Under the pieces are notes generated by a model that had not been told where the DNA came from, ran no database searches, and saw only the letters and a program-made list of their open reading frames with translations. A DNA stretch of 64,000 nucleotides, taken from the NCBI RefSeq assembly GCF_000058485.1, contig NC_008278.1, positions 5,202,962 through 5,266,961 on the forward strand, written 5' to 3'. Source of the DNA: Frankia alni ACN14a (lineage in GTDB: Bacteria; Actinomycetota; Actinomycetes; Frankiales; Frankiaceae). The position numbers and the translations under genes were made by a program. The number at the start of each line of letters is the position of its first letter. Position 1 is the stretch's first letter. Below, one piece after another: positions 22,371 to 42,786 of this stretch.

Positions 22371-23411
22371 GTGCGAGCGACCCTGCTGGAGGACGTCGGG
22401 AAGATCGCGCTGCGGGAGTTCCCCGACCCGGTCGTCCAGCGCCCCACCGACGCGGTGGTGCGCGTGACCGCGAGCTGCATCTGCGGCTCCGACCTGCACC
22501 CCTACCGCGGTAAGACGCCCAGCGTGTTCCCGAAGCGCATCGGGCACGAGTTCGTCGGCGTCGTCGAGGACATCGGCGACGAGGTCACGACCGTGCGGCC
22601 GGGCGACGTGGTCGTCGCCCCCTTCCTGATCAGCGACGGCACCTGCCGGTACTGCCGCGCCGGCCTGCACACCTCCTGCGAGAACGGCTCGGTCTGGGGA
22701 ACCGACGACGGGTCCGGCGCCCGCTCCGACGCCTGCCAGGGCGACCGGATCCGCGCGCCGTTGGCCGACGGGACCCTGGTCCGGGTCGGCACCGAGCTGC
22801 CCGAGGCGTTGCTGCCCGACGTCCTGGCGCTGTCCGACGTCATGGGCACCGGTCATCACGCCGCGGTCTGCGCGGGGGTGGGTCCGGGTTCCACCGTCGT
22901 GGTCGTCGGCGACGGCGCGGTGGGCCTGTGCGCGGTGCTCGCGGCCCGCCGCCTCGGGGCGGAACGCGTCGTGGCGATGTCGCGGACGCCGAGCCGGCAG
23001 AAGCTGGCGGCCGAGTTCGGCGCCACCGACATCGTCGCCGGTCGGGGCGCCGAGGGCATCGCGCAGGTGGGCGAGCTGCTCGGCGACGGGGCCGACGCCG
23101 TCCTGGAGTGCGTCGGCTCGCAGGAGTCCCTGGAGCAGGCCGCCGCGGTCGCCCACCCCGGTGGACGGCTGGGTTGCGTCGGCGCCCCCCTGGGCAACCT
23201 GCCCCTGGGCCCGTTGTTCATGAAGAACGTGCGGCTGGCGGGCGGGGTGGCGCCGGCGCGCGCCTACCTGCCCGAGCTGCTCGACGACGTGCTTGCCGGC
23301 CGGGTGCGACCCGGGCGCATCTTCGATCTGGAACTGCCGTTGGACGAGGTCGCCGAGGGCTATCGGGCGATGGACGAGCGCCGGGCGATCAAGGTGCTGC
23401 TGCGTCCCTGA
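22371..23411 (+). CDS. Zinc-dependent alcohol dehydrogenase (MDR superfamily)
   Basis: 346 residues. Catalytic zinc residues are seen in SCICGSDLHPYRG and RIGHEFVGVV, and the nucleotide-binding loop in VVVGDGAVGLCAVLAARRLG. The structural zinc lobe reads SDGTCRYCRAGLHTSC: an Asp stands where most relatives have the first of four cysteines, a variant common in this branch. GTG 22371 has GGGAGG at 22356-22361. The reaction is NAD(P)-linked oxidation of an alcohol; substrate unknown. Confidence 0.9.
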   Translation: MRATLLEDVGKIALREFPDPVVQRPTDAVVRVTASCICGSDLHPYRGKTPSVFPKRIGHEFVGVVEDIGDEVTTVRPGDVVVAPFLISDGTCRYCRAGLHTSCENGSVWGTDDGSGARSDACQGDRIRAPLADGTLVRVGTELPEALLPDVLALSDVMGTGHHAAVCAGVGPGSTVVVVGDGAVGLCAVLAARRLGAERVVAMSRTPSRQKLAAEFGATDIVAGRGAEGIAQVGELLGDGADAVLECVGSQESLEQAAAVAHPGGRLGCVGAPLGNLPLGPLFMKNVRLAGGVAPARAYLPELLDDVLAGRVRPGRIFDLELPLDEVAEGYRAMDERRAIKVLLRP

Positions 23412-23789
23412 GGGCTGCGGCGTTCTCACTTCTCAGCGTGCCTCAGGCCGCACCGTCCGTGCGGCGTTTCACCGGGCGTGGCGATGGACTGGACCCCGGC
23501 AGGGGCATACCGTTGGTTCATGCGCGGGGATCCCACTCTGGTCTGCCGCCTGCACGTCGATTTCGCCCGGGTGGCCAGCGCGCTGTGTCGCGCCCCGCGC
23601 CGCTCGGTGTCCCCCTGACCGGTGCCGCGGCTGGCCCGTCGAGCGGCTGATTCACCGACAGGATCGCGGGACACACGTCCACCGGTCCGGACGCACCGCC
23701 GATGCGCACCTCAGGCCGCCGATTCCTGGCTCAGGCCCGCCGATCCGCCCCTCGCCCGCCCCTCGCCTCCGGCCATCCGGGAGACTCGC
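23412..23789 (+). promoter_or_regulatory. ssuD upstream control region with leader ORF
   Basis: 378 bp separate the alcohol dehydrogenase from ssuD. The region holds the short cysteine-containing ORF at 23520-23618. A weak -10-like TACCGT lies at 23510-23515, so close to the ATG that a leaderless transcript is plausible. The 170 bp between the leader stop and ssuD are G+C rich with many possible hairpins, as an attenuator would need; I could not pick one terminator by eye. Confidence 0.5.
23520..23618 (+). CDS. Cysteine-containing leader peptide ahead of ssuD
   Basis: 32 codons from ATG 23520 to TGA 23616-23618. The peptide contains CRLHVDFARVASALCR, which fits the pattern of the actinobacterial 'putative leader peptides' found upstream of sulfur-assimilation genes (R-x-HVD-x2-R-x2-SA-x-C). 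The last Cys is encoded by TGT, uncommon in this genome. The alignment with the leader at 41034 is position for position. Translation stalling when cysteine is scarce could control ssuD (inference from family). Confidence 0.75.
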   Translation: MRGDPTLVCRLHVDFARVASALCRAPRRSVSP

Positions 23790-24923
23790 GTGAGCGTGCA
23801 CGCCCACTGGTTCCTGCCCACCTCGGGGGACAGCCGCAACCTCGACGCCGCCGCGGTGAGCGCCAAGGAAACCCCCCACCTGCAACCGGCCGCCCAGCGG
23901 CCGCCCAGCATCGGCTACCTCGCCCAGATCGCCGCCGCGGCGGAGTATCTCGGGTACGAGGCCGTGCTCACCCCGACCGGGACCTGGTGTGAGGACGCCT
24001 GGCTCACCACCGCGGCCCTGCTGCGCGAGACCACCCGGCTGCGTTTCCTCGTGGCGCTGCGGCCCGGTTTCCTCAGCCCCACCCTCGCCGCGCAGATGGC
24101 GGCGACCTACCAGCGCATCTCCGGCGGACGGCTGCTGCTCAACGTGGTCACCGGCGGCGACGCCGACGAGCAGCAGCGCTTCGGCGACTGGCTGAACCAC
24201 GACGCCCGCTACCGGCGTACCGAGGAGTTCCTGCAGGTCGTCCGGGGGGCGTGGACGGGCCGGCCGTTCACCTACGACGGCGAGCACTACGCGGTGCGGG
24301 GCGCCACCGTCCGCGAGCGTCCCGAGCCGACGCCACCGATCTTCTTTGGCGGCGCCTCCCCCGCGGCCGAACTCGTCGCCGCCCGGCAGGCCGACACCTA
24401 CCTGCTCTGGGGTGAGCCGCCGGCCGCCGTCGCCGAACGGCTCGACCGGATGCGGGCCCTGGCCAAGGACCAGGACCGGGAGCTGCAGTTCGGCATCCGG
24501 CTGCACGTCATCACCCGGGACACCGCCGACGCCGCCTGGGCGGTCGCCGACGAGTTGCTCGCCCAGCTCGACCCGGCGGCGATCGCGGCGGCGCAGCGGC
24601 GCTTCGCCGGGACCGAGTCCGTCGGGCAGCAGCGGATGGCGGCCCTGCACCGCGGCAGCCTCGACGCGCTGGAGATCTCCCCGAACCTCTGGGCGGGATT
24701 CGGCCTCGTCCGCGGCGGCGCCGGCACCGCGCTCGTCGGCAGCCACGCCGAGGTCGCGGACCGCATCGCCGAGTACCACGATCTGGGCATCGAGCACGTC
24801 ATCCTCTCCGGCCATCCCCATCTCGAGGAGGCCTACTGGTTCGCCGAGGGCGTCCTGCCCCTGCTGCGACACCGGGGACTGCTCGCGCCCGTCCCGGGGC
24901 CGGCCGCCGCACTCTCGTCCTGA
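23790..24923 (+). CDS. ssuD: FMNH2-dependent alkanesulfonate monooxygenase
   Basis: 377 residues, collinear with E. coli SsuD: HWFLPTSGDSRNL, LTPTGTWCEDAWLTTAALL (conserved Cys), FLVALRPGFLSPTLAAQMAA, then SVGQQRMAALHRGS, LEISPNLWAGFGLVRGGAGT and LSGHPHLEEAYW. It releases sulfite from alkanesulfonates using reduced FMN and oxygen. GTG 23790 has GGGAG six bases upstream. No ssuABC transporter or ssuE reductase is adjacent, so flavin supply must come from elsewhere. The leader ORF upstream suggests cysteine control. Confidence 0.93.
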   Translation: MSVHAHWFLPTSGDSRNLDAAAVSAKETPHLQPAAQRPPSIGYLAQIAAAAEYLGYEAVLTPTGTWCEDAWLTTAALLRETTRLRFLVALRPGFLSPTLAAQMAATYQRISGGRLLLNVVTGGDADEQQRFGDWLNHDARYRRTEEFLQVVRGAWTGRPFTYDGEHYAVRGATVRERPEPTPPIFFGGASPAAELVAARQADTYLLWGEPPAAVAERLDRMRALAKDQDRELQFGIRLHVITRDTADAAWAVADELLAQLDPAAIAAAQRRFAGTESVGQQRMAALHRGSLDALEISPNLWAGFGLVRGGAGTALVGSHAEVADRIAEYHDLGIEHVILSGHPHLEEAYWFAEGVLPLLRHRGLLAPVPGPAAALSS

Positions 24924-26132: not shown

Positions 26133-27494
26133 TCAGGTCGACGCTACGGAGCGGGAGGCGTAACGGCTCGGTGGGCGCGGGAGGCCTAGGTGCTCGCGCA
26201 GGGTGCGGCCGGTGTAGGCGGTGCGGAACAGGCCGCGGCGGCGCAGCTCGGGGATGACCAGATCCACGAAGTCGTTCAACGCGTCCGGCAGATACGGGAA
26301 GATCACGTTGAAGCCGTCGGCGGCGCGCTGGTCGAACCACTCCTCGATGTGGTCGGCCACGGTCGTCGGCGTGCCGACCAGCGTCCGGTCGTCCCGGGCG
26401 ATCTGGTCGGCGAGCTGGCGGATGGTCAGGTTGTTCGCCCGCGCCTGGTCCACGATCTGCCGCTGGCCGCTGAGGCTCTGGTTGGACGGCGGCAGCTCGG
26501 GCAGCGGGCCGTCGAGCGGGAACGCGGTGAGATCGAACCCGCCGAGCCGGTAGCTCAGGTCGGCGAGCGCGACCCGCGGGTCGAGCAGCGAGCGCAGCGC
26601 GGCGATCTTGTCCTCGGCCTCGGCCTGGGTCCGCCCCACGATCGTGGACAGCGCGGGCAGCACGATCACGTGGTCGGGGTCGCGTCCCGCGGCCGCGGCC
26701 CGTGTCTTGATGTCGGCGTAGTACGCCTGCGCCCCCGGCAGGGTCGGATGCGCGGTGAAGATCACCTCGCCGACCCGGGCCGCGAGGTCCCGGCCCGTCT
26801 CGGACGCGCCGGCCTGGACGACGACCGGGCGGCCCTGCGGCGGCCGGGCGATGTTCAGCGGCCCGCTGACCCGGAAGTGCGTCCCGGCGTGGTTCAGCCA
26901 GTGGATCTTCTCGGGGTCGAAGTAGACCCCGGCGGTCTGGTCGTGCCGGAAGGCGTCGTCGTCGAAGCTGTCCCACAGCCCGGTCACCACGTCGTGGAAC
27001 TCGGCGGCCCGGGCGTAGCGCAGCTCGTGCTCGACGTGGCTGTCCAGCCCGAAGTTCTGCGCCTCCGCGTCGTTGAGGGAGGTGACGAGGTTCCAGCCGG
27101 CCCGTCCACCGGACAGGTGGTCCAGCGAGGCGAACGTCCGGGCCAGGTGGTAGGGCTCGTTGTAGGTCGTCGACGCCGTCGCGACGAGACCGATGCGGGT
27201 GGTGGCGGTGGCGAGCGCGGCGAGCAGGGTCGTCGGTTCGAAGGAGTCGTTGACGACGGAGACGCGGGAGAGCACCTCCTGGCTGGTCAGGGGGACGCCG
27301 ACCAGGTCGGCCAGGAAGATCGCGTCGAAGGTCCCCCGCTCGGCGGTGCGGGCCAGCTCGATCACGTGCCGGATGTTCACCCCGGCGTCGGCGACGGCGT
27401 GGGGGTGCCGCCAGGCGGCGAGGAACTCCCCCGGCGGCTTGAGGAAGGCGTTGAGATGGACCTGACCGCTGCGGCGAGGCTGCGTCGACGTCAT
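26133..27494 (-). CDS. NtaA/SnaA/DszA-family flavin-dependent monooxygenase (second copy)
   Basis: 453 residues. Family hallmarks are AWRHPHAVADAGVNI, AERGTFDAIFLADLVG, STTYNEPYHLARTFASLDHL, SGGRAGWNLVTSLND and PVVVQAGASETGRDLAARV. Members oxidise nitrilotriacetate, dibenzothiophene sulfone or related sulfones using FMNH2. ATG 27494 overlaps the upstream gene by four bases. This is the last gene of the eight-gene operon, and context points to an organosulfur substrate. It is about half identical by eye to the preceding gene, so they may form a heteromeric or sequential pair. Confidence 0.9.
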   Translation of the reverse strand: MTSTQPRRSGQVHLNAFLKPPGEFLAAWRHPHAVADAGVNIRHVIELARTAERGTFDAIFLADLVGVPLTSQEVLSRVSVVNDSFEPTTLLAALATATTRIGLVATASTTYNEPYHLARTFASLDHLSGGRAGWNLVTSLNDAEAQNFGLDSHVEHELRYARAAEFHDVVTGLWDSFDDDAFRHDQTAGVYFDPEKIHWLNHAGTHFRVSGPLNIARPPQGRPVVVQAGASETGRDLAARVGEVIFTAHPTLPGAQAYYADIKTRAAAAGRDPDHVIVLPALSTIVGRTQAEAEDKIAALRSLLDPRVALADLSYRLGGFDLTAFPLDGPLPELPPSNQSLSGQRQIVDQARANNLTIRQLADQIARDDRTLVGTPTTVADHIEEWFDQRAADGFNVIFPYLPDALNDFVDLVIPELRRRGLFRTAYTGRTLREHLGLPRPPSRYASRSVAST

Positions 27495-28993
27495 CGGATT
27501 CCCGCCCCGCTCGTCTCGACGCCGGACGCGGCGCCCGATGGGGTGCCTGGCGGGGTGCTGCCTGGCGGGGTGCTGCCTGGCGGGGTGCCGGGTGCCGTGC
27601 CTGGTGGAGCGCTCGGCGCGGCCGGGAGGGAGCCGTCGCGGTGGGCGGGGTCGTCCCGCCGCGGGGCGGCGACCGGGCGCGGCAGCCCGAGATGCCCGCG
27701 CAACGTGGTCTCGGTGTAGGACTCGCGGAACAGGCCGCGGCGGCGCAGCTCCGGCACGACCTGGTCGACGAAGTCCTCGGCGGCGCCGGGCAGGTAGGGG
27801 AAGCCGACGTTGAAGCCGTCCGCGCCGCGCCCGGTGAACCATTCCTCGACGTGGTCGGCGATCGTCTCCGGCGTGCCGGTGATCATGCCGCCGCCGGAGG
27901 ACCGCCGGGCGAGCCCACGGATCGTCAGGTTCTCGCGGCGGGCGAGGTCGAGCATCTGCTCGGAGCGGCTACGGCTGCGGTTCGTCTCGCCGACCTCGGG
28001 CAGCGGCCCGTCCAGCGGATACCCGGAGAGATCCACGTCGCCGACGGTGTCCTGGACGAGGCGACGGGCGACGTCGTCGTGGATGAGCTCCAGCAGCTCG
28101 TCGCGCCGCGCGCGGGCGGCGGCCTCGGTGTCCCCGACGATCGGCGCGAGGACCGGCCAGACCAGCAGGTGGTCCGGGTTGCGCCCGTGCGCCGCGGCCC
28201 GCGCCTTGACGTCGGCGTAGAACCGCTGGGCACCGGCGAGGGTGCCCTGCCCGGTGAACACCACCTCGCCGTGACGGGCGGCGAAGTCCTTGCCCGCCTC
28301 CGACGAACCGGCCTGGAAGATGACCGGGTGGCCCTGTGGGGGTCGGGAGATGCTCAGCGGACCGCGCACGGCGAAGTGCTCGCCGCGGTGGTGCGGGGTG
28401 CGCAGGCCGGCGGGGTCGTAGTAGCGACCCGCGGCGGTGTCGCGCCGCACGGCGCCGTCGTCGAAGCTGTCCCACAGCGCGCGGACGACCTCGACGAACT
28501 CCTCGGCGCGCCGGTAACGCAGCCCGTGTTCGAGGTGGGCGTCGCGGCCGAAGTTCGCGGCCTCCTGCGGCAGCACCGAGGTCACCGCGTTCCAGCCGGC
28601 GCGCCCGGCGGACAGGTGGTCGAGCGAGGCGAACTTGCGGGCGACGTGGAACGGCTCGCCGTAGGTCGTGCTGGCCGTGCCGACCAGGCCGATCCGCTCG
28701 GTCACCGTCGACAGCGCGGCCAGCAGGGTCAGGGGCTCGAACCGGACCGACCGGGCTGTGCGGTGCAGCGCGTCCAGGTCCGTCCCCGAGATCGCGACGA
28801 CGTCGGCGATGAACAGGGCGTCGAAGGTGCCGCGTTCCAGCGTCTGGGCGACCCGGAGGTGATGGTCGAGGTCGAGTTCGCCGTCGGGCGGGGACAGCGG
28901 GTGGCGCCAGCCGGCGATGTGACCGCCGGCGCCCTGCAGCACGGCGCCGAGCGTCAGCATCCGCCGCGAACGCCCGTCGGAGGTGGTGGTCAT
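27491..28993 (-). CDS. NtaA/SnaA/DszA-family flavin-dependent monooxygenase (first copy)
   Basis: 500 residues. It has the same hallmarks as its downstream neighbour: GWRHPLSPPDGELDL, LERGTFDALFIADVVA, STTYGEPFHVARKFASLDHL and PVIFQAGSSEAGKDFAAR. The last 55 residues are a Pro/Gly/Ser tail (PPGSTPPGSTPPGTPSG) encoded by a short tandem repeat. Both ends overlap neighbouring genes by ATGA. The reaction is likely C-S or C-N bond cleavage with FMNH2; the substrate is not visible. Confidence 0.9.
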   Translation of the reverse strand: MTTTSDGRSRRMLTLGAVLQGAGGHIAGWRHPLSPPDGELDLDHHLRVAQTLERGTFDALFIADVVAISGTDLDALHRTARSVRFEPLTLLAALSTVTERIGLVGTASTTYGEPFHVARKFASLDHLSAGRAGWNAVTSVLPQEAANFGRDAHLEHGLRYRRAEEFVEVVRALWDSFDDGAVRRDTAAGRYYDPAGLRTPHHRGEHFAVRGPLSISRPPQGHPVIFQAGSSEAGKDFAARHGEVVFTGQGTLAGAQRFYADVKARAAAHGRNPDHLLVWPVLAPIVGDTEAAARARRDELLELIHDDVARRLVQDTVGDVDLSGYPLDGPLPEVGETNRSRSRSEQMLDLARRENLTIRGLARRSSGGGMITGTPETIADHVEEWFTGRGADGFNVGFPYLPGAAEDFVDQVVPELRRRGLFRESYTETTLRGHLGLPRPVAAPRRDDPAHRDGSLPAAPSAPPGTAPGTPPGSTPPGSTPPGTPSGAASGVETSGAGIR

Positions 28994-30135
28994 CGTTTCC
29001 TCCCAGGTCCGGCGGAGGTCCCCAGGCCGGCCGGTGCCGGCGGGCCGGGCGGGGGCGGGGACGGTGGCGGGTCGGGCACGCGCGGCGCGGCGGGCACGGG
29101 TCCGGCCGCGGGTCGCCAGCCCAGCGCCGGGGCGATCTCGGTGGCGATGAGCTCCATGCGGCGCAGGGTCGCGTCGAGGTCGGCCGCCGCGCCGGCCTCG
29201 CCCTGCACCGCGGCGATGAAGTAGGACACGGCGGCGGGGCCGACCGGGTTCGTCGCGAGGCTGTGGATCACCACGCCGACCGGGCCGTGGTGGACGTTCA
29301 TCGCGTCGAGCGCGGCGCCGTCGTCGAGGTCGGCGGGGAACCCGAAGTTCTCCAGCCAGGGGCGAAACCGGGCGATGTCGGGAGCCAGGTCCACCCGGGC
29401 GGCCAGGCGGTCCGGCCCCGGGAACACCCCGTGCGAGACGGCGAGGCGCGCGCCCGCGGGATCCCCGCCGACGGCGTGGTGGGCGGCCTGGTGGGCCGCG
29501 AGGTAGACGTCGGCGAGGGGACGCTGCGCGGACCCCGCCGGGCCGATGCCCAGCAGCAGCCCGTCGCCGGCCCGCGCCGCCGCCCGCGCCCCGTCGGCGC
29601 TCGTCGTCGAGTCCCAGAACCGGCTGGCGAGGGTCGGCGCGGGCGGGTGCAGCCGCAGCCCGTCGGTCCCGGCGATCGGCTGCCCGGCCAGCAGCTCCCG
29701 CAGCCGGCCGCGCGCGGCGTCGAACAGCTCCCGGCGGCGGGCGACGTCCCGGTCGAAGGCGCCGAAGGCGGGCGCGCTCGGGCCGCCGGTGCCGAGCCCG
29801 AGCTGCAGGCGTCCGCCGCTGAGCGCGTCGAGGACGGCGGCGTCCTCGGCGAGTCGGACCGGATCCTCCAGCGGCAGGACCACGACGGCGGTGCCCAGCT
29901 CGATGCGCCGGGTCGCCTGGGCGGCCGCGGCGAGCAGCAGCAGCGGCGACGGCAGCCGGCCGTAGTCGGGAGAGAAGTGGTGCTGGGCGAGCCAGCCGCC
30001 GTCGAACCCGAGTTCCTCCCCGGCGACGAACAGCTCCACCACCTCGCGGTAGACGGCGCCGGCCGGGCGGCCACGGCCGTGCACATGGGTGAGGAAGCCC
30101 AGCCTGAACGGGCCGGGGCCGCCGGGTGCGGGCAT
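28990..30135 (-). CDS. LLM class flavin-dependent oxidoreductase
   Basis: 381 residues: GFLTHVHGRGRPAGAVYREV, LGFDGGWLAQHHF, ATRRIELGTAVVVLPLEDPV and LDALSGGRLQLGLGTGGPS, all typical of the FMN-dependent luciferase-like fold. ATG 30135 is preferred because GGAGG lies just upstream; the in-frame ATG eight codons earlier has no such site. The C-terminus is a Pro-rich tail. Its link to an oligopeptide-type ABC transporter suggests that it acts on the imported compound. Confidence 0.88.
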   Translation of the reverse strand: MPAPGGPGPFRLGFLTHVHGRGRPAGAVYREVVELFVAGEELGFDGGWLAQHHFSPDYGRLPSPLLLLAAAAQATRRIELGTAVVVLPLEDPVRLAEDAAVLDALSGGRLQLGLGTGGPSAPAFGAFDRDVARRRELFDAARGRLRELLAGQPIAGTDGLRLHPPAPTLASRFWDSTTSADGARAAARAGDGLLLGIGPAGSAQRPLADVYLAAHQAAHHAVGGDPAGARLAVSHGVFPGPDRLAARVDLAPDIARFRPWLENFGFPADLDDGAALDAMNVHHGPVGVVIHSLATNPVGPAAVSYFIAAVQGEAGAAADLDATLRRMELIATEIAPALGWRPAAGPVPAAPRVPDPPPSPPPPGPPAPAGLGTSAGPGRKR

Positions 30136-30195
30136 CGCATCCTCCTGGTCGAACCTCATCGGACTGCGGCGAACCTCATCCCCTGCATGCGCCGG

Positions 30196-31095
30196 TCAGG
30201 GCGGCGGCAGCCGTGGCACGGCGGCGAGCAACGCCCTCGTGTACGGGTGGGCCGGCCGGGACAGCACGTCGCCGGTCGCACCCTGCTCGACCAGCGTGCC
30301 GCCGCGCATGACGGCGATCTGGTCGCAGAGCCGGGATACCACGCCGAGATCGTGGGAGACCAGCACGAGGCCGAGGCGGTGCCGCGCGGCGAGCTGGCCG
30401 AGCAGGTCGAGGATCTGGGCGCGGACGGCGACGTCCAGGGCGCTGACCGGTTCGTCGCCGACGAGGACCCGCGGCCGGGGCGCCAGCGCCCGGGCGATGG
30501 CGATGCGTTGGCGCTGGCCGCCGGAGAACTCGTGCGGGTAACGCCCGCGGACGCCGGGGTCGAGGTCGACGGCCCGCAGCACCTCGTCGACCCGCTCGTC
30601 ATGGTCGCCGGGAACGCCGAGGCAGACCAGCGGTTCCGCGACGGCCGCGCCGACGGTCATGCGCGGGTCGAGCGAACCGGCCGGATCCTGGAACACGACC
30701 TGGACCTCGCGGCGAAACCAGCGCAGCGCCCGGGGACGACCGGGGACGACCGGCCGGCCCCGGTAGCGGACGGTGCCGGCGTCGGGCCGGTCCAGCCCGA
30801 GAAGCAGGCGGACGAGGGTCGACTTGCCCGACCCGGACTCGCCGACGATGCCGAGCGCCGCCCCGTCGGCGAGGCGCAGGGTCACGTCGCGCACGGCGTG
30901 GCGGACGCCGGGTGGGCCGAACGGCGACGTGCGTGGCAGGCGGTAGCTCCGCCGGAGCCCGGTGGCCTCGAACAACGGCCCGGCGGCGTCCAACGACGGA
31001 TCGGCGGCGTCCAACGACGGCCCGGTGGCGTCCAACGACGGATCGGCGGCGTCCAACGACGGATCGGCGGCGTCGAACAGCGGATCGGCGGTCAC
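30196..31095 (-). CDS. Oligopeptide/nickel-type ABC transporter, ATPase F
   Basis: 299 residues. Walker A GESGSGKS, Q-loop VQVVFQDPAGSLDPRM, signature FSGGQRQR and Walker B VLVGDEPVSALD are all present, and the C-terminal PYTRALLAAVP is typical of Dpp/Opp ATPases. The first 40 residues are five copies of a seven-residue repeat (DAADPSL) from a 21-bp minisatellite. GTG 31095 overlaps the partner ATPase gene. Confidence 0.92.
   Translation of the reverse strand: MTADPLFDAADPSLDAADPSLDATGPSLDAADPSLDAAGPLFEATGLRRSYRLPRTSPFGPPGVRHAVRDVTLRLADGAALGIVGESGSGKSTLVRLLLGLDRPDAGTVRYRGRPVVPGRPRALRWFRREVQVVFQDPAGSLDPRMTVGAAVAEPLVCLGVPGDHDERVDEVLRAVDLDPGVRGRYPHEFSGGQRQRIAIARALAPRPRVLVGDEPVSALDVAVRAQILDLLGQLAARHRLGLVLVSHDLGVVSRLCDQIAVMRGGTLVEQGATGDVLSRPAHPYTRALLAAVPRLPPP
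30980..31086. repeat. 21-bp minisatellite at the ATPase F N-terminus
   Basis: About five 21-bp units of the type GGCGGCGTCCAACGACGGATC encode DAADPSL and close variants directly after the start codon. Confidence 0.85.
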
Positions 31096-31976
31096 GCGAT
31101 CGTCCCCGTTGTCGTCGCCTCGGACGCCGGGGTGGGGACATCCGACCCGCGCGCGGTCGGCGCCACCGCGCCGCCGCCGGCGGCGGGGAGATCCCCCTGA
31201 GTCAGCCGCGCCGCCGCCAGCAGCGCGCGGGTGTACGGATCCGCGGGGGCCCGCAGCACGTCGTCGGTCGCACCGGTCTCCACCACCCGCCCACGGCGCA
31301 GCACGGCGAGCCGGTCGGTGCCGGCCGCGACCACCGCGAGGTCGTGCGTGATGAACAGCAGGGCGGTGCCGGTGTCGTCGACGAGCCGGCCGAGCAGGGC
31401 GAGGATCTCGGCCTGGACGGTGACGTCGAGTGCCGTCGTCGGCTCGTCCGCGAGCAGCATCGCCGGTCGGCACGCCAGCGCCGCGGCGATGCAGACCCGC
31501 TGGCGCTGGCCGCCGGAGAGCTCGTGCGGATAGGAGCGGACGAGCCGCTGCGGGTCCGGCAGCCCGACCGCCGCGGCGAGTTCGACCGCGGCCCGCGCCG
31601 CCGCCTGGCGGGAGTACCCGCGGTGCAGCCGCAGTGGTTCGGAGATCTGGCGGCCGACCCGCATCAGCGGGTTCAACGCGGTCGACGGCTCCTGGAAAAT
31701 CATCGCCAGGTCGCGTCCACGCAGCCGGGACAGCTCCCGGTCCGAGCCGCCGAGCAGTTCGCGGCCGTGCAGGCGAACGCTGCCGGTGACGCTCGCGCCC
31801 GGTGGCAGCAGGCCGAGCACGGCGAGCGCGGTCAGCGACTTGCCCGACCCGGACTCGCCGATGAGCCCCACCCGCTCACCCGCGGCCAGGGCGAAGCTGA
31901 CGCCGTCCACCACGTCGACGCCACCGAGCCGCACCCGCAGATCGGTGACCTCCAGCACCGCCGCGCCGGTCGTCAT
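31092..31976 (-). CDS. Oligopeptide/nickel-type ABC transporter, ATPase D
   Basis: 294 residues with Walker A GESGSGKS, MIFQEPSTALNPLM, signature LSGGQRQR, Walker B MLLADEPTTALD and the C-terminal DPYTRALLAAARLTQGDLP. The D and F ATPases form a heterodimer powering the two permeases. It overlaps neighbours at both ends by four bases. Confidence 0.92.
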   Translation of the reverse strand: MTTGAAVLEVTDLRVRLGGVDVVDGVSFALAAGERVGLIGESGSGKSLTALAVLGLLPPGASVTGSVRLHGRELLGGSDRELSRLRGRDLAMIFQEPSTALNPLMRVGRQISEPLRLHRGYSRQAAARAAVELAAAVGLPDPQRLVRSYPHELSGGQRQRVCIAAALACRPAMLLADEPTTALDVTVQAEILALLGRLVDDTGTALLFITHDLAVVAAGTDRLAVLRRGRVVETGATDDVLRAPADPYTRALLAAARLTQGDLPAAGGGAVAPTARGSDVPTPASEATTTGTIA

Positions 31977-33025
31977 GTCCGGCCCTCCCCGCGGACCCGG
32001 TGCCAGCGCGCTCGCGGAACGGCCCCGGCCATGAGCCCCGCCGAGGCCGAGGCCGCGGGCGCTGCCGGCGCCGGGGGCACGTGCGCCGCAGGGGGAGCGG
32101 GCGCCGCGGGGGGAGCGGGCGCCGCGGGGGGAGCGGGCGCCGCGGGGGCCGCGTGCGGGGCGCCGTCGGAGTCCGCGGCCGGGCGCTCGCGCAGCCGCGG
32201 GTCGCCGGCCTCGCGCAGGCCGTCCCCGAGCAGGTTGAAGCCGAGGACCGTCAGCACGACCGCGAGGCCGGGCCACAGCAGCGTCAGCGGTCGCAGGGTG
32301 AGGTACGGCTGGAGTTCGGCGAGCATCCGTCCCCAGGACGGCGTGGGCGGCGGGGTGCCGAACCCCAGGTAGGACAGCGCCGCCTCGGTCAGCACGGACA
32401 GACCGAGGATGAGCGAGAGCTGGACCCACACCGTCGGCGCGATGTTCGCCAGCACGTGCCGGCGCACGATCCGACCGGTGCCGGCGCCGGCGGCCCGCGC
32501 GGCGAGCACGTAGTCGGCGCCGAGCACCCGGCGGACCTCGCCGCGGGTGACCCGGCCCAGCCCGATGCCCGCCCCGACGCCGATGGCGACGATCGCGGTC
32601 CAGCGCGAGCCGCCGTACACGGCCGCGAGCACCATGGCGAGCAGCAGCACCGGGAACGCCAGCAGCACGTCGACGAGGTGCGCGACCCCCTCGGAGACCG
32701 GGCGCGGCGGCAGGGTCGCCAGCAGCGCGAGCCCCACCCCGACGACCGCGGCGATCGCCGTGGCCGCCACGGCGACGACCAGGGTGGTGCGCGCGCCGAC
32801 GAGAACCTGGCTGAACAGGTCCCGGCCGAGCCGGTCCGCGCCGAACCAGTGCGCGGTCCCGACCGGTGCCCAGGACGCCGCCGGATCCACCCGGGACGGG
32901 TCGTACGGCGTCCAGACCAGCGACACGACGGCCGCGACGACGACGAGCCCGGACAGGACCGCGCCGAGGCGCCCGGACCGGCTGCCCCACACGCCGCGGG
33001 CCAGCGCCCGCACCGAGCCGGTCAC
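31973..33025 (-). CDS. Oligopeptide/nickel-type ABC transporter, permease C
   Basis: 350 residues. Six or so hydrophobic helices start at LGAVLSGLVVVAAVVSLVW, with the inner-membrane motif GADYVLAARAAGAGTGRIVRRHVL. It contains AHWFGADRLGRDLFSQVLVG, typical of DppC/OppC. The C-terminal 60 residues are a low-complexity Ala/Pro tail (PPAAPAPPAAPAPP) from an 18-bp repeat at about 32090-32160. GTG 33025 overlaps the permease B gene. Confidence 0.9.
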   Translation of the reverse strand: MTGSVRALARGVWGSRSGRLGAVLSGLVVVAAVVSLVWTPYDPSRVDPAASWAPVGTAHWFGADRLGRDLFSQVLVGARTTLVVAVAATAIAAVVGVGLALLATLPPRPVSEGVAHLVDVLLAFPVLLLAMVLAAVYGGSRWTAIVAIGVGAGIGLGRVTRGEVRRVLGADYVLAARAAGAGTGRIVRRHVLANIAPTVWVQLSLILGLSVLTEAALSYLGFGTPPPTPSWGRMLAELQPYLTLRPLTLLWPGLAVVLTVLGFNLLGDGLREAGDPRLRERPAADSDGAPHAAPAAPAPPAAPAPPAAPAPPAAHVPPAPAAPAASASAGLMAGAVPRARWHRVRGEGRT

Positions 33026-33972
33026 CGGGCGCCGCGCAGCCGCGGATCGAGCAGCCGGTGCGCCAGGTCGACGCCGAAACCGACGACGAGCACGGCCGTG
33101 GTGACCAGCAGCACCGTGCCCTGCACCTTGACCAGGTCACGGTTGCCGATGTCGGCGACGAGCATCCCGCCCAGCCCGGGCAGCGCGAACACGTTCTCGA
33201 CCACCACGGCACCGAGCAGCAACGTCGCGAACTCCAGGCCGAGAATCGACACCACCGGCAGGGCCGCGTTGCGGATCCCGTGCCGGCGCAGCGCCTGCCC
33301 GCGGGTCAGGCCCTTCGCCCGGGCGGTCCGGATGAAGTCGGCGTGCAGCACCTCCAGGGTCGCCGAGCGGACGAAACGCAGCAGCACCGCGGCCTCCACC
33401 ACCGCCAGGGTGACCACCGGCAGCACGAGGGCGCGTACGGCCGCGACCGGATCGGCCCAGCCGTCCGCGGGGAACCCGCCGGCGGGCAGCAGCCGCCAGT
33501 CGACCGCGAACACCGTGACCAGCATCAGCCCCACCCAGAACGTCGGGACCGCGAGGCCGAGCTGGCTCAGCGCCGACAGGGCGACCCCGGAGGTCCGCCG
33601 GTGGCGGGCGGCCGCCAGGACACCGAGCGGCGCGGCGACCGCGAGCGCCAGCACGGTGGCGGCGCCGACGAGCGGGGCGGTCACGGTCAGCTTCTCGGCG
33701 AGCTCCCCCGACACCGTGGCCCCGTTGAGCGCCGAGACCCCGAAGTCCCCGGTCAGCACGCCGCCGATCCAGTCCAGGTACTGCGCGGGCAGGGACCGGT
33801 CGGCGCCGATCTCGTGGCGGATCCGCAGCACCTGGTCGGGCGAGGCGGACGTCCCGGCCAACACGTCGGCGGCGTCACCGGGCAGCAGCCGCAGCAGCGC
33901 GAACACGAGCAGGCTGGCGACGACCAGGGAGACCGCCAGCAGGCCCAGCCGCCGCAGGAGGATCATCGCCAT
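33022..33972 (-). CDS. Oligopeptide/nickel-type ABC transporter, permease B
   Basis: 316 residues of standard DppB/OppB length: MILLRRLGLLAVSLVVASLL, an extracytoplasmic loop with PAQYLDWIGGVLTGDFGVS, and the motif DFIRTARAKGLTRGQALRRH. The last helix reads VLLVTTAVLVVGFGVDLAH. It pairs with permease C. Confidence 0.92.
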   Translation of the reverse strand: MAMILLRRLGLLAVSLVVASLLVFALLRLLPGDAADVLAGTSASPDQVLRIRHEIGADRSLPAQYLDWIGGVLTGDFGVSALNGATVSGELAEKLTVTAPLVGAATVLALAVAAPLGVLAAARHRRTSGVALSALSQLGLAVPTFWVGLMLVTVFAVDWRLLPAGGFPADGWADPVAAVRALVLPVVTLAVVEAAVLLRFVRSATLEVLHADFIRTARAKGLTRGQALRRHGIRNAALPVVSILGLEFATLLLGAVVVENVFALPGLGGMLVADIGNRDLVKVQGTVLLVTTAVLVVGFGVDLAHRLLDPRLRGAR

Positions 33973-34018
33973 CGGCGCGCCGCCCCACCCCCACGGCCGC
34001 GACCACCACCCGGGCAGG

Positions 34019-35539
34019 TCACGATTTCACAACCTCGATCTTCGACAGGTCGTAGGTCGCGGAGACGTTGTCGGTCGGGTAACCGGTGACGCCGACCCGG
34101 GCGACCTGCCGCGCCTTGGCGAGCAGGAGCCAGTCGGCGATGGCGTCCTCGGAGTAGCGGCGGGCGAGGCCACGCAGGGCCGTGTCGCGCTCGGCGTCGG
34201 AGGCGGCGGTGGCACCGGCCTTCGCGAGGTCGCGGGCCTGCGGGGAGCGGTCGCCGAAGTAGTAGCCGGGCTTGACGTAGAAGGCGAGGTCACGCGCCTC
34301 GGCGTGGTCGACGATGCTCAGGTCGTAGTCGTGCTTGGTGTAGACGCCGGTGAGCCAGGCGGGGAACTCGACGCGGTGCAGGTCGACGGTGACGCCGATC
34401 TCGCGTAGCTGGGAGGTGACGTAGTCGCCGATGCTCGGCGGGTAGATGTTCGGGACGGTGAGGCCGAGGCGCAGCCCGCCGCCGTGCCCCGCCTGCGCGA
34501 GCAGCCGGCGCGCGCTCGCCGGGTCGTAGCGGTCGATGCTCGTGAGGTCGGAGTACCACGGGTCCAACGGCGGCACGGGCGAGCCGATCCGGGTCCCGGC
34601 GCCGAGCACCTTGATCAGCCCGTCCTTGTCGATGCCCTGGCGGATCGCGTGCCGGACCCGGGCGTCGGCCAGCGGCCCACGGTCCTGGTTGAACGCCAGG
34701 GTGAACTTGTCGGTGGTCGTGCCCTCCGCGATGGTGAACTTCGGGTTGCCCCGGTAGGCCTCGATCAGGTCGTTGTCGGAGATCACCCCGACGTCGACCT
34801 GACCGGTGCGCACCGCGTTGTTCTGCGCGTTCGCGTCGGTGAGGTAGCGGAAGACCACCCGGGCGACCTTGGCCTTCGGCCCCCGGTAGGCGTCGTTGCG
34901 CACGAGGGTGATGCTGTCGCCGCGCCGCCAGGAGTCGAACCGGAACGGCCCGGTGCCGTCGGGATGACCGTCGAGGCCGGTGGCGCCCTCGCGCACGACG
35001 ACGCCGGCCGGGCCGGTCAGGTTGAACAGCAGCCCGCTGTCACGTTCTTTCAGCGTCAGGACCACCGTGCGCGGGTCGGGGCTGGTGACCGCGGAGAGGG
35101 AGGCCAGGTCGCTGGCGTGCGGGTTCGTCGAGTTCGGCCCGATCACCTTGGTCAGCGACGACACCACGTCCGCGGCGCGCACCGGGGCGCCGTCCTGGAA
35201 GGCGGCGTTGCCCGCGAGGGTGAACGTGTACGTGAGGCCGTCCGGGGAGATCGTGTAGGACGTCGCGAGCGCCGGGCTCACCACCCCCTTCTGGTCCCGT
35301 TTCACCAGCCCCTCGTACACGTTGCCGAGCAGGATCTGGCCGACCGCGACCCCGCTGGTGCGGGTGATGTCGAGGCTCGTCGGTTCGAGGACGGCGCCGA
35401 TGGTCACGGTGGCGTCGGGATGGGCGCGACCGCCGGTCGACGCCGGGCCGCCGGTCGGGCCGTCCTCGCCGTCCGACCCGCAGGCCGCCAGCGCCAGGCC
35501 GGCGACGGCGACAGCGGCGGCAAAGGTTCTGATTCTCAT
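34019..35539 (-). CDS. Family 5 extracellular solute-binding lipoprotein
   Basis: 506 residues. A lipoprotein signal peptide (RTFAAAVAVAGLALAAC, lipid-modified Cys20) is followed by a family 5 peptide/nickel-type binding domain: YEGLVKRDQKGVVSPALATS, DGLTYTFTLAGNAAFQDGAP and the hinge NDAYRGPKAKVARVVFRYL. ATG 35539 has AAAGGGG upstream. It is the first structural gene of the eight-gene operon. The ligand is unknown; linkage to three monooxygenases and to metY suggests a sulfur-containing organic compound. Confidence 0.92.
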   Translation of the reverse strand: MRIRTFAAAVAVAGLALAACGSDGEDGPTGGPASTGGRAHPDATVTIGAVLEPTSLDITRTSGVAVGQILLGNVYEGLVKRDQKGVVSPALATSYTISPDGLTYTFTLAGNAAFQDGAPVRAADVVSSLTKVIGPNSTNPHASDLASLSAVTSPDPRTVVLTLKERDSGLLFNLTGPAGVVVREGATGLDGHPDGTGPFRFDSWRRGDSITLVRNDAYRGPKAKVARVVFRYLTDANAQNNAVRTGQVDVGVISDNDLIEAYRGNPKFTIAEGTTTDKFTLAFNQDRGPLADARVRHAIRQGIDKDGLIKVLGAGTRIGSPVPPLDPWYSDLTSIDRYDPASARRLLAQAGHGGGLRLGLTVPNIYPPSIGDYVTSQLREIGVTVDLHRVEFPAWLTGVYTKHDYDLSIVDHAEARDLAFYVKPGYYFGDRSPQARDLAKAGATAASDAERDTALRGLARRYSEDAIADWLLLAKARQVARVGVTGYPTDNVSATYDLSKIEVVKS

Positions 35540-38687
<3,148 letters not shown>

Positions 38688-41033: not shown

Positions 41034-41171
41034 ATGCCGGCGGCATCCGATCGGCGTCCCGCGGACGCACGGTGGGGCCTGCCGCGCAGCCGGTCCACCC
41101 GGTGGCGGCTCACCCGGCGGCTCGTGATCGATCTGCGGCGTTCGTCCAGCAGCCGCTGTCCCGGTCCCTGA
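41034..41171 (+). CDS. Cysteine-containing leader peptide ahead of the MsnO8-type gene
   Basis: 45 codons from ATG 41034, with GGGAG upstream, to TGA 41169-41171. The C-terminal part RRLVIDLRRSSSSRCPGP aligns without gaps to the ssuD leader: R-L, then V-D or I-D, an Arg three positions on, a Ser-rich stretch and a Cys encoded by TGT. It ends 310 bp before the LLM gene. Attenuation by cysteine supply is inferred. Confidence 0.6.
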   Translation: MPAASDRRPADARWGLPRSRSTRWRLTRRLVIDLRRSSSSRCPGP

Positions 41172-41481
41172 CCGGCCCGGCGACGGTCCGGACCGCCGCG
41201 CCGCATCACCCGACCGTCCCCAGAGCCGGGCCGCCCACCGGTGGAAGCCTCCGCGACAAGACCGGCCGCACGGCCGCGCGGGGCCCGGCGCGTCGCGGCG
41301 GCCAGCGGCTGGACCGCAGGGCTGGCCGGGGCCGCGCCGATCTCCCGCCCGCAGTCCATGCCGCCGCGATCGGCACCCCGTGCCCGGACGACCGTCGGAG
41401 CGACGCCCACGCCCTCGGTCGCACCGCGGCGGCGGCCCGGCACCGGCACCAGCCCCACCCGCCTCGACCGAAAGGCCAGAC
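41172..41481. promoter_or_regulatory. Leader-to-gene region of the MsnO8-type gene
   Basis: 310 bp, extremely G+C rich, with many GCGCGG/CCGCGC complementary stretches able to fold as alternative hairpins. No protein-coding frame with family resemblance is seen. If the leader acts as an attenuator, the terminator/antiterminator would lie here. Confidence 0.35.
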
Positions 41482-42786
41482 ATGGCAGACATCCCGTTGG
41501 CCGTCCTCGATCTCGTTCCGGTCAGCGCCGGTGACAGCCCGAACGACGCGCTGCGCAACACCGTCGACCTGGCCCGGCAGGCCGAGGCGTTCGGGTACCG
41601 GCGGTACTGGTTCGCCGAGCATCACCTCAACCCCGGCCTGCTCGGCGTGTCCCCCGCGGTGGCGATCGCGCTGGTGGCCGGGGCGACGTCGACGATCCGG
41701 CTCGGCTCGGCGGGCGTGCAGAGCGGGCACCGCACGCCGCTGGCCGTCGTCGAGGAGTTCGGGCTGATCGACGCGCTGCACCCCGGCCGCCTGGACCTCG
41801 GCATCGGCCGCTCACCGGGCCGGCCGGCCCCGAAGAACGGCGCGACGCCCAACGGCGCGACCCCCAACGGCGCGGCCCCGGCCGGCGCGGACGGCGGACC
41901 CGGCGACGGCGGACCCGGCGACGGCGGACCTGATGGCGGCGGACCCGGGGACGGCGCGGCGACTCCCACCCCGGCGCCGGCCCTCGTCTCGGCCGCGGCG
42001 GCCGCCTATCAGGCCAGCCTCGGCGGGGTCGACCACAGCACCGACCAGCGGGCCGCCAACGGCCTGCTGATCCCCCGCCGGTTCGACTTCAGCAGGCTGC
42101 TCGGCTCGCCCCGGCTGGGGGTGACCCTGTCGCTGCTGCAGCAGCCGGGCGCCTACACCCCCGAGTACGCCGACCAGGTCGACGACATCCTCGCCCTGCT
42201 GCGCGACACCTACCACACCGCCGACGGCCAGACGGCCCGCGCCTGGCCGGGGACCGGCGCGGCGCTGGAGGTGTGGATCCTCGGGGCGTCCGGCGGGTCG
42301 AGCGCCTCCGTGGCGGGTTCGCGGGGGCTGCGCTTCGCCGCCTCCTACCATCACAGCCCCAGCACGGTGCTCGACGCGGTCGAGGCGTACCGGGCGGCGT
42401 TCGAGCCGTCGGCGGATCTCGCCGCGCCCTACGTCTCGGTCTCCGCCGACGTCGTCGTCGGTGAGGACGACGCCAGCGCGGCCCGACTGGCCGCCGGCTA
42501 CGGGCTGTGGGTCCGCAGCATCCGCAGCGGTGCGGGGGCGATCCCGTTCCCGACTCCCGAGCAGGCCGCCGCGCACACCTGGAGCGACGCCGATCGGGAC
42601 CTGGTCGCCGACCGGGTCGCCACCCAGCTGGTCGGCTCCCCGTCGACCGTCGCCGACCGGCTCGAACAGCTCGCGGCGGCGACCGGCGCGGACGAGCTGG
42701 CCGTCACCACGATCACCCACCAGCACGCCGACCGGGTGCGCTCCTACGAGCTGCTGGCCGCGGAGTGGACCCGCCGGCACGGCTGA
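41482..42786 (+). CDS. MsnO8-family LLM oxidoreductase
   Basis: 434 residues: IPLAVLDLVPVSAGDSPNDA, YRRYWFAEHHLNPGLLG, STIRLGSAGVQSGHRTPLAV and FGLIDALHPGRLDLGIGRSPG are typical of MsnO8-like luciferase-family oxidoreductases. ATG 41482 has AAAGG six bases upstream. A low-complexity insert (about residues 115-157) made of NGATP and GGPGD repeats interrupts the barrel. It uses reduced flavin; the substrate is unknown, but the leader ORF ties it to sulfur or cysteine status. Confidence 0.9.
   Translation: MADIPLAVLDLVPVSAGDSPNDALRNTVDLARQAEAFGYRRYWFAEHHLNPGLLGVSPAVAIALVAGATSTIRLGSAGVQSGHRTPLAVVEEFGLIDALHPGRLDLGIGRSPGRPAPKNGATPNGATPNGAAPAGADGGPGDGGPGDGGPDGGGPGDGAATPTPAPALVSAAAAAYQASLGGVDHSTDQRAANGLLIPRRFDFSRLLGSPRLGVTLSLLQQPGAYTPEYADQVDDILALLRDTYHTADGQTARAWPGTGAALEVWILGASGGSSASVAGSRGLRFAASYHHSPSTVLDAVEAYRAAFEPSADLAAPYVSVSADVVVGEDDASAARLAAGYGLWVRSIRSGAGAIPFPTPEQAAAHTWSDADRDLVADRVATQLVGSPSTVADRLEQLAAATGADELAVTTITHQHADRVRSYELLAAEWTRRHG

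Follow-up and report, generated by a model that had tools for sequence, protein, structure and literature searches.

The stretch of Frankia alni ACN14a DNA analysed here (64,000 nucleotides, the window) carries on its forward strand a 32-codon open reading frame, from ATG to TGA, that encodes MRGDPTLVCRLHVDFARVASALCRAPRRSVSP. The peptide includes RLHVDFARVASALC and has two Cys residues in all. The GTG start of an ssuD-like gene lies 171 nt beyond the leader stop codon. The best NCBIfam models for the ssuD product, NF001939 (458.2 bits, cut-off 510) and TIGR03565 (447 bits, cut-off 518.2), are both alkanesulfonate monooxygenases, yet both cut-offs were missed, including the equivalog score of TIGR03565. 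The features of the region are listed in the table.

Features of the leader-ssuD region (positions in the window)
Feature	Position	Strand	Basis
Possible -35 hexamer TGGACT, 17 nt before the -10	23485..23490	+	Sequence; invariant in 6 Frankia; weak match to TTGACA
-10 element TACCGT (TAnnnT), 6 nt before the ATG	23508..23513	+	Sequence; TACCGT or TACGGT in 6 Frankia
Leader peptide ORF, 32 codons	23520..23618	+	Sequence, NCBIfam
Conserved core LVCRLHVDFARVASALC	23538..23588	+	0/17 codons with amino-acid change in 6 Frankia; family columns
Proposed control codon: terminal Cys codon UGU (C23), next base C	23586..23588	+	Family codon and next-base counts
C-rich, G-poor stretch, candidate Rho-loading region (excess of C over G reaching 22 in 78 nt)	23690..23776	+	Skew computation
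GGGAG, likely Shine-Dalgarno of ssuD	23779..23783	+	Sequence
ssuD-like FMNH2-dependent monooxygenase	23790..24923	+	NCBIfam, Pfam searches

The leader ORF and its conservation

The original prediction had described a cysteine leader peptide with the motif RLHVDFARVASALC in this ORF. The ORF and its motif are confirmed by the sequence, by a family match and by conservation among Frankia. When the 32-residue peptide was searched against NCBIfam, residues 5-23 matched all 19 positions of NF042934 ("putative leader peptide") with 27.4 bits against a cut-off of 27 (E 1.8e-6). The profile search with known leader peptides that had been proposed as a check thus supports family membership narrowly: as a peptide the ORF passes the cut-off, marginally. 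In a six-frame NF042934 search of the whole genome, the site fell slightly short of the cut-off, at 26.2 bits (E 8.8e-5). Its placement, as a short ORF closely upstream of a metabolic gene on the same strand, also agrees with NF042934. The ORF could alternatively open at a GTG 14 codons upstream, giving 46 aa. The conserved -10 is placed for the ATG, and therefore the 32-codon start is favoured. The NF042934 score drops to 26.4 bits with the longer start and to 22.9 bits without the first six residues. No Pfam match was obtained for the peptide, and a single Rfam match, on the other strand at E 7.1, was rejected as chance. The peptide is not a member of Ms4527A (NF042936; 19.8 bits, cut-off 45), and it gave no match to Ms5788A (NF042933); a terminal run of Cys codons is also absent. 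The window leader is thus one more member of the catalogued actinobacterial leader family. It has the core motif of NF042934 and likewise precedes a likely sulfur gene, but its tail is longer: 9 codons follow the terminal Cys, where the family median is 3 (202 leaders). The name of the model gives no mechanism.

The core is identical in five other named Frankia, where the terminal Cys codon lies 185-206 nt before ssuD and the ORF ends 151-172 bases before it. Comparison of the six sequences shows four synonymous changes in the 17 core codons and none that alters an amino acid; in the tail, 8 of 9 codons have an amino-acid change. The ORF is short and its family score marginal, as would be expected of a chance ORF, but the unchanged core and the genome-wide E-value make that reading hardly credible.

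SsuD loci from named genomes were examined for leaders in the best 80 of at least 580. Where DNA was available upstream, 23 of the 80 have a leader on the same strand. Eight of these leaders lie at 173-206 bases (five in Frankia; L054, L076 and L105 in the Streptomyces group). The other 15 lie at 1.06-2.96 kb, 11 of them at 2.8-2.96 kb. Upstream DNA of at least 2.6 kb was present for 72 of the 80 loci, so more distant leaders would be missed. From whole genomes of the host's family, 30 SsuD loci out of 37 matches were examined, the window's own included and five probably repeating named strains. The same core is found directly upstream at six and a weak match (14.5-16.6 bits) at three, and 21 are without a leader directly upstream.

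It had also been claimed that ssuD stands here without its usual transporter. Locally this is true, for ssuD comes straight after the leader. A Nik/Opp-type ABC transporter, however, is found 1.2 kb beyond ssuD on the other strand. Four SsuA-like matches occur elsewhere in the genome, all under the curated cut-off (best 159.8 against 163.5). Ten Streptomyces or Actinacidiphila loci have the leader 2.8-2.96 kb upstream of ssuD, a gap which, judged by spacing alone, has room for a transporter operon. The transporter genes beyond ssuD belong to a cluster at 26133-35719 (-), in which Nik/Opp-type ABC transporter genes and three LLM monooxygenases stand in a row, possibly an organosulfur scavenging cluster. 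The genome-search matches (E up to 10) include no family leader before it.

The -10 element lies at the spacing of a leaderless transcript, with a predicted start at the ATG, and this position is conserved in the six Frankia. A generic sigma-70 scan found no promoter at the leader. In the leader family, TAnnnT at leaderless spacing precedes 58 of 355 in-frame starts against 4 of 285 out of frame, and it is present in 65 of 135 leaders (one of 136 non-redundant leaders was dropped from this test). A promoter of the leader's own is thus plausible.

Codon and peptide constraint in the leader family

A peptide profile applied over 331 loci yielded 202 distinct leaders; two rows were dropped and near-duplicates removed, leaving 136. 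The terminal Cys codon is UGU in 200/202 leaders and in 134/136 of the non-redundant set, and a motif search without the profile gave 210/212. UGU makes up 11% of 406 Cys codons in coding-like ORFs of the same loci (Fisher 8e-84 against the terminal Cys) and 6% of 67 in those of the window. With residues numbered negatively from the terminal Cys, the other core Cys codons of the non-redundant leaders are UGU in 12/85 (14%; Fisher 7e-43), including 4/44 at -7 and 6/32 at -2. Past the terminal Cys the preference declines, to 16/22 at +1 and 7/17 at +2. The leader searches used amino acids, and hence neither Cys codon can have been favoured. The terminal UGU is mostly followed by a pyrimidine, with G as next base in 2/136 against 48% of 196 ORF Cys codons.

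One tRNA-Cys gene, with anticodon GCA, was found among 45 tRNA places in the genome, so UGU is read by G:U wobble. NNC codons are described as mostly read faster than NNU, Cys tRNA being cited among others, an effect that is clearest for codon pairs served by a single G34 tRNA (PMC4046918). At the leu leader, changing CUA codons to CUG is reported to have reduced sensitivity; the same source regards an explanation by codon rarity as oversimplified and accounts for control-codon choice by isoacceptors and selective charging (PMC1183508). Selective charging needs several isoacceptors, and with one tRNA-Cys the theory leaves UGU unexplained. Suppressor work suggests that the base 3' of UGU may also weaken decoding. 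The terminal Cys codon of the leaders thus appears to be a rare, slow UGU, almost always the same.

Conservation runs from -16 to the terminal Cys, an edge at -16 that is partly built in because the profile covered 17 positions. R(-13) and D(-9) are each present in 136/136 non-redundant leaders and R(-6) in 133/136, both arginines being specified by six different codons. A plain amino-acid attenuator has no need for such invariant residues, and these counts argue for constraint at the peptide level. S(-3) is AGC in 85/108 (79%, background 28%) and D(-9) is GAT in 39/136 (29%, background 8%); some RNA- or codon-level constraint therefore also exists. The original prediction had seen in the Cys-containing motif a hallmark of actinobacterial leaders of sulfur genes. 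The family match and the relatives before sulfur genes bear this out, although the hallmark is more than Cys codons and comprises a peptide motif with one particular UGU. Neither the UGU rule nor the R-D-R motif was found among the papers listed by the literature searches, and either may be in print; within that scope, codon rule and peptide constraint can count as new.

Counted from the residue before UGU, R, D and R stand at -12, -8 and -5. The essential residues W12, D16 and I19 of TnaC, the leader of the E. coli tna operon, have the same offsets from P24, as described in PMC10941005. The Asp is in the same place, and a Rho step, described for TnaC, is suggested here too. Trp and Pro have no counterpart, the places of W12 and P24 being taken by R10 and L22 in the window leader, and for this reason homology with TnaC is not claimed. 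The coincidence was noticed after the fact and by our own estimate has a chance of roughly 1 in 140 (286 choices of 3 out of 13 places, two registers). The likeness suggests similar tunnel contacts. The systems differ in the predicted stall codon, which is a stop codon in TnaC and a Cys codon in the leader; the model for the leader invokes no ligand, and its logic is opposite.

A closer parallel to TnaC would be a ligand-sensing arrest peptide, in which the nascent chain binds cysteine, sulfide or another sulfur metabolite in the tunnel, as TnaC binds tryptophan. The shared offsets and the conservation up to the terminal Cys are in keeping with this, but the UGU rule points to Cys decoding as the sensed step and a stall induced by cysteine would switch a scavenging gene in the wrong direction, and we consider such sensing improbable. 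Peptide-level conservation might also reflect a small protein acting in trans. Against this stand the end of conservation at the terminal Cys, past which the tail varies, the 15 copies in the genome, and a UGU constraint not expected of such a protein, all of which render the idea very remote. The evidence fits better with an actinobacterial leader of the NF042934 type that, judged from sequence, probably acts in cis on ssuD in response to cysteine.

Proposed signal path from leader to ssuD

A terminator scan of 23380-23850 found no terminator-like site. Over the 80 bases after the leader stop, the C>G skew of the family is 0.199 and positive in 92% of 134 leaders, against 0.072 upstream of 360 other gene starts (p 3e-16). 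Two of the 136 leaders were dropped from the skew and folding tests and three from the pairing test. The RNA between leader and ssuD folds worse than shuffles (z +1.74 and +2.17), and no stable or conserved structure was found there. Across the family, the RNA after the stop folds slightly better than shuffles (mean z -0.53; 10% of 134 leaders below z -2), and some members may use hairpins. The output step may accordingly differ between members.

Rho has been proposed for mycobacterial cys leaders, in a prediction called rather weak (PMC1262725), and at TnaC the stalled ribosome is described as blocking Rho (PMC10941005). For the link from leader to ssuD, Rho is perhaps to be preferred to translational control, with a confidence somewhat short of even. 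The C-rich stretch starts about 70 nt after the leader stop and C23 lies 30 nt before the end of the stop, so a ribosome paused at C23 would not cover the C-rich part. This distance, together with the post-stop folding of the family, makes the Rho step the least certain.

Translational attenuation would dispense with a role for the nascent chain: slow Cys codons would refold the RNA and free the ssuD ribosome site, as in mycobacterial polycysteine leaders. The M. smegmatis cases are indeed described as attenuation of translation in a review (PMC9031893) and a research paper (PMC13236596), and CUCC precedes GGGAG in 6/6 Frankia. A hairpin at the ssuD ribosome site is however unsupported as a common fold, with z from -0.87 to +1.62 and structures differing among the six Frankia. 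Leader segments pair with downstream RNA hardly better than shuffles do (mean z -0.34 to +0.04 in 19 windows, 133 leaders), and the invariant R, D and R are left unexplained. On balance this mechanism seems rather unlikely here, though it is the strongest of the competing accounts. A classical transcription attenuator with an intrinsic terminator fares far worse. Such attenuators have been predicted for trp operons of Corynebacterium and Streptomyces, and codon changes in the S. coelicolor ilvB leader are stated to have had no effect (PMC1262725). The window lacks a terminator-like site in the region scanned, just 36/134 leaders show a T-rich octamer at a distance of up to 150 nt from the stop, and the control codons are not in a run, so that the leader falls outside the class and the explanation is very unlikely.

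Under the preferred reading of a cysteine-responsive leader in cis, the transcript would be leaderless, beginning at the ATG, with immediate translation of the leader. A shortage of charged tRNA-Cys would hold the ribosome with C23, the UGU codon, in its A site at a distance of 9 codons from the stop, a pause probably lengthened by the nascent chain with R10, D14 and R17 in the upper exit tunnel. The paused ribosome near the end of the leader would let RNA polymerase reach ssuD. When cysteine is sufficient, the ribosome would reach the stop and leave, and the C-rich untranslated stretch would be open to Rho. SsuD frees sulfite from sulfonates, and with the paused ribosome letting RNA polymerase through, its gene would be expressed under cysteine shortage. 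To the extent that sequence can tell, the ORF had been recognised rightly and most of its interpretation holds, with cysteine-responsive control of ssuD as the predicted part.

Classic attenuators use runs of control codons, and the single conserved control codon of this leader family speaks against our best explanation, as does the lack of a leader directly upstream at 21 of the 30 SsuD loci examined in the host's family. We tentatively suggest, as a possibility for the whole family that we hold to be somewhat less than evenly probable, a hybrid of attenuator and arrest peptide, in which the nascent chain (R at -12, D at -8, R at -5) makes the ribosome hypersensitive at a single wobble-read UGU and the readout is mainly through Rho. 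With such a hybrid a single conserved Cys codon would be enough, and the Cys codons further inside would be under no pressure to avoid UGC. If it is true, a lone codon could report the charging of Cys-tRNA. The near-invariant UGU and the three residues name the exact codon and side chains to mutate.

Related leaders in the genome and across actinobacteria

What is known of actinobacterial cysteine leaders comes mainly from mycobacterial polycysteine cases, in which the run of Cys codons offers an easy explanation. Many relatives of the window leader carry, as it does, a single conserved Cys codon. The window leader shares with the mycobacterial polycysteine leaders (Ms5788A, Ms4527A) an R-x-[HA]-[VI]-D-L-x-R core in a short ORF with Cys near the stop, and differs from them in having no run of Cys codons. 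Polycysteine leaders of three further genomes (L166, L189 and L191) share an R-x-A-V-D-L-C-R-V core. A peptide of this type scores 38.6 bits with NF042934 and 44 with Ms5788A (cut-off 45). About 0.63 kb after the Cys codon of these three leaders lies a gene which we take to be CysA2-like. In mycobacteria, a Cys-ended small ORF upstream of cysA2 is described in PMC4633059, and the polycysteine leaders are given as leaderless and Cys-responsive in papers that cite Canestrari 2020. L166, L189 and L191 thus appear to link the mycobacterial polycysteine cases to the NF042934-type family.

The whole-genome NF042934 search (one contig, 7,497,934 bases, E up to 10) gave 26 matches, of which 15 were accepted as leaders by inspection. 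At this threshold 10 of 14 control genomes also matched, none over the cut-off. The other 11 matches (L016-L026, E 0.46 and above) were dropped, sequence having been inspected for L016-L019 only. Five of the 15 accepted leaders pass the NF042934 cut-off, the window leader not being among them. Downstream genes include a nitrite/sulfite reductase type (L002), a mercaptopyruvate sulfurtransferase-like gene (L004), LLM monooxygenases (L001, L006, L014) and Nik/Opp/glutathione-type binding proteins (L003, L008, L015). A carbonic anhydrase-like gene follows L009 and an amidohydrolase L011. Genes not clearly linked to sulfur are an SDR (L007), a ROK regulator (L013), a weak hydrolase (L010) and a weak AAA ATPase match (L012); for L005 no downstream gene was found. 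The targets of L013, L007, L012 and L005 are possible unrecognised sulfur genes. The pattern of UGU and residues provides a simple finder for such leaders and their targets, some of which are poorly annotated sulfur-scavenging genes.

In the host's family, each of the 35 genomes searched gave one or more matches exceeding the cut-off. In even genome samples at E 1e-4, a match was found in 8/149 of the phylum and 177/295 of the class. None of the 14 control genomes matched in the family, phylum and class searches.

A second family leader in the window, at 41106-41159 (+), reads RLTRRLVIDLRRSSSSRC with a terminal TGT (14.9 bits) and precedes an MsnO8-type LLM monooxygenase at 41380-42786. Elsewhere, leader pairs occur on opposite strands of one short stretch (L233 and L288; G015:C611 near 1749 and 2012), and these perhaps serve divergent operons.
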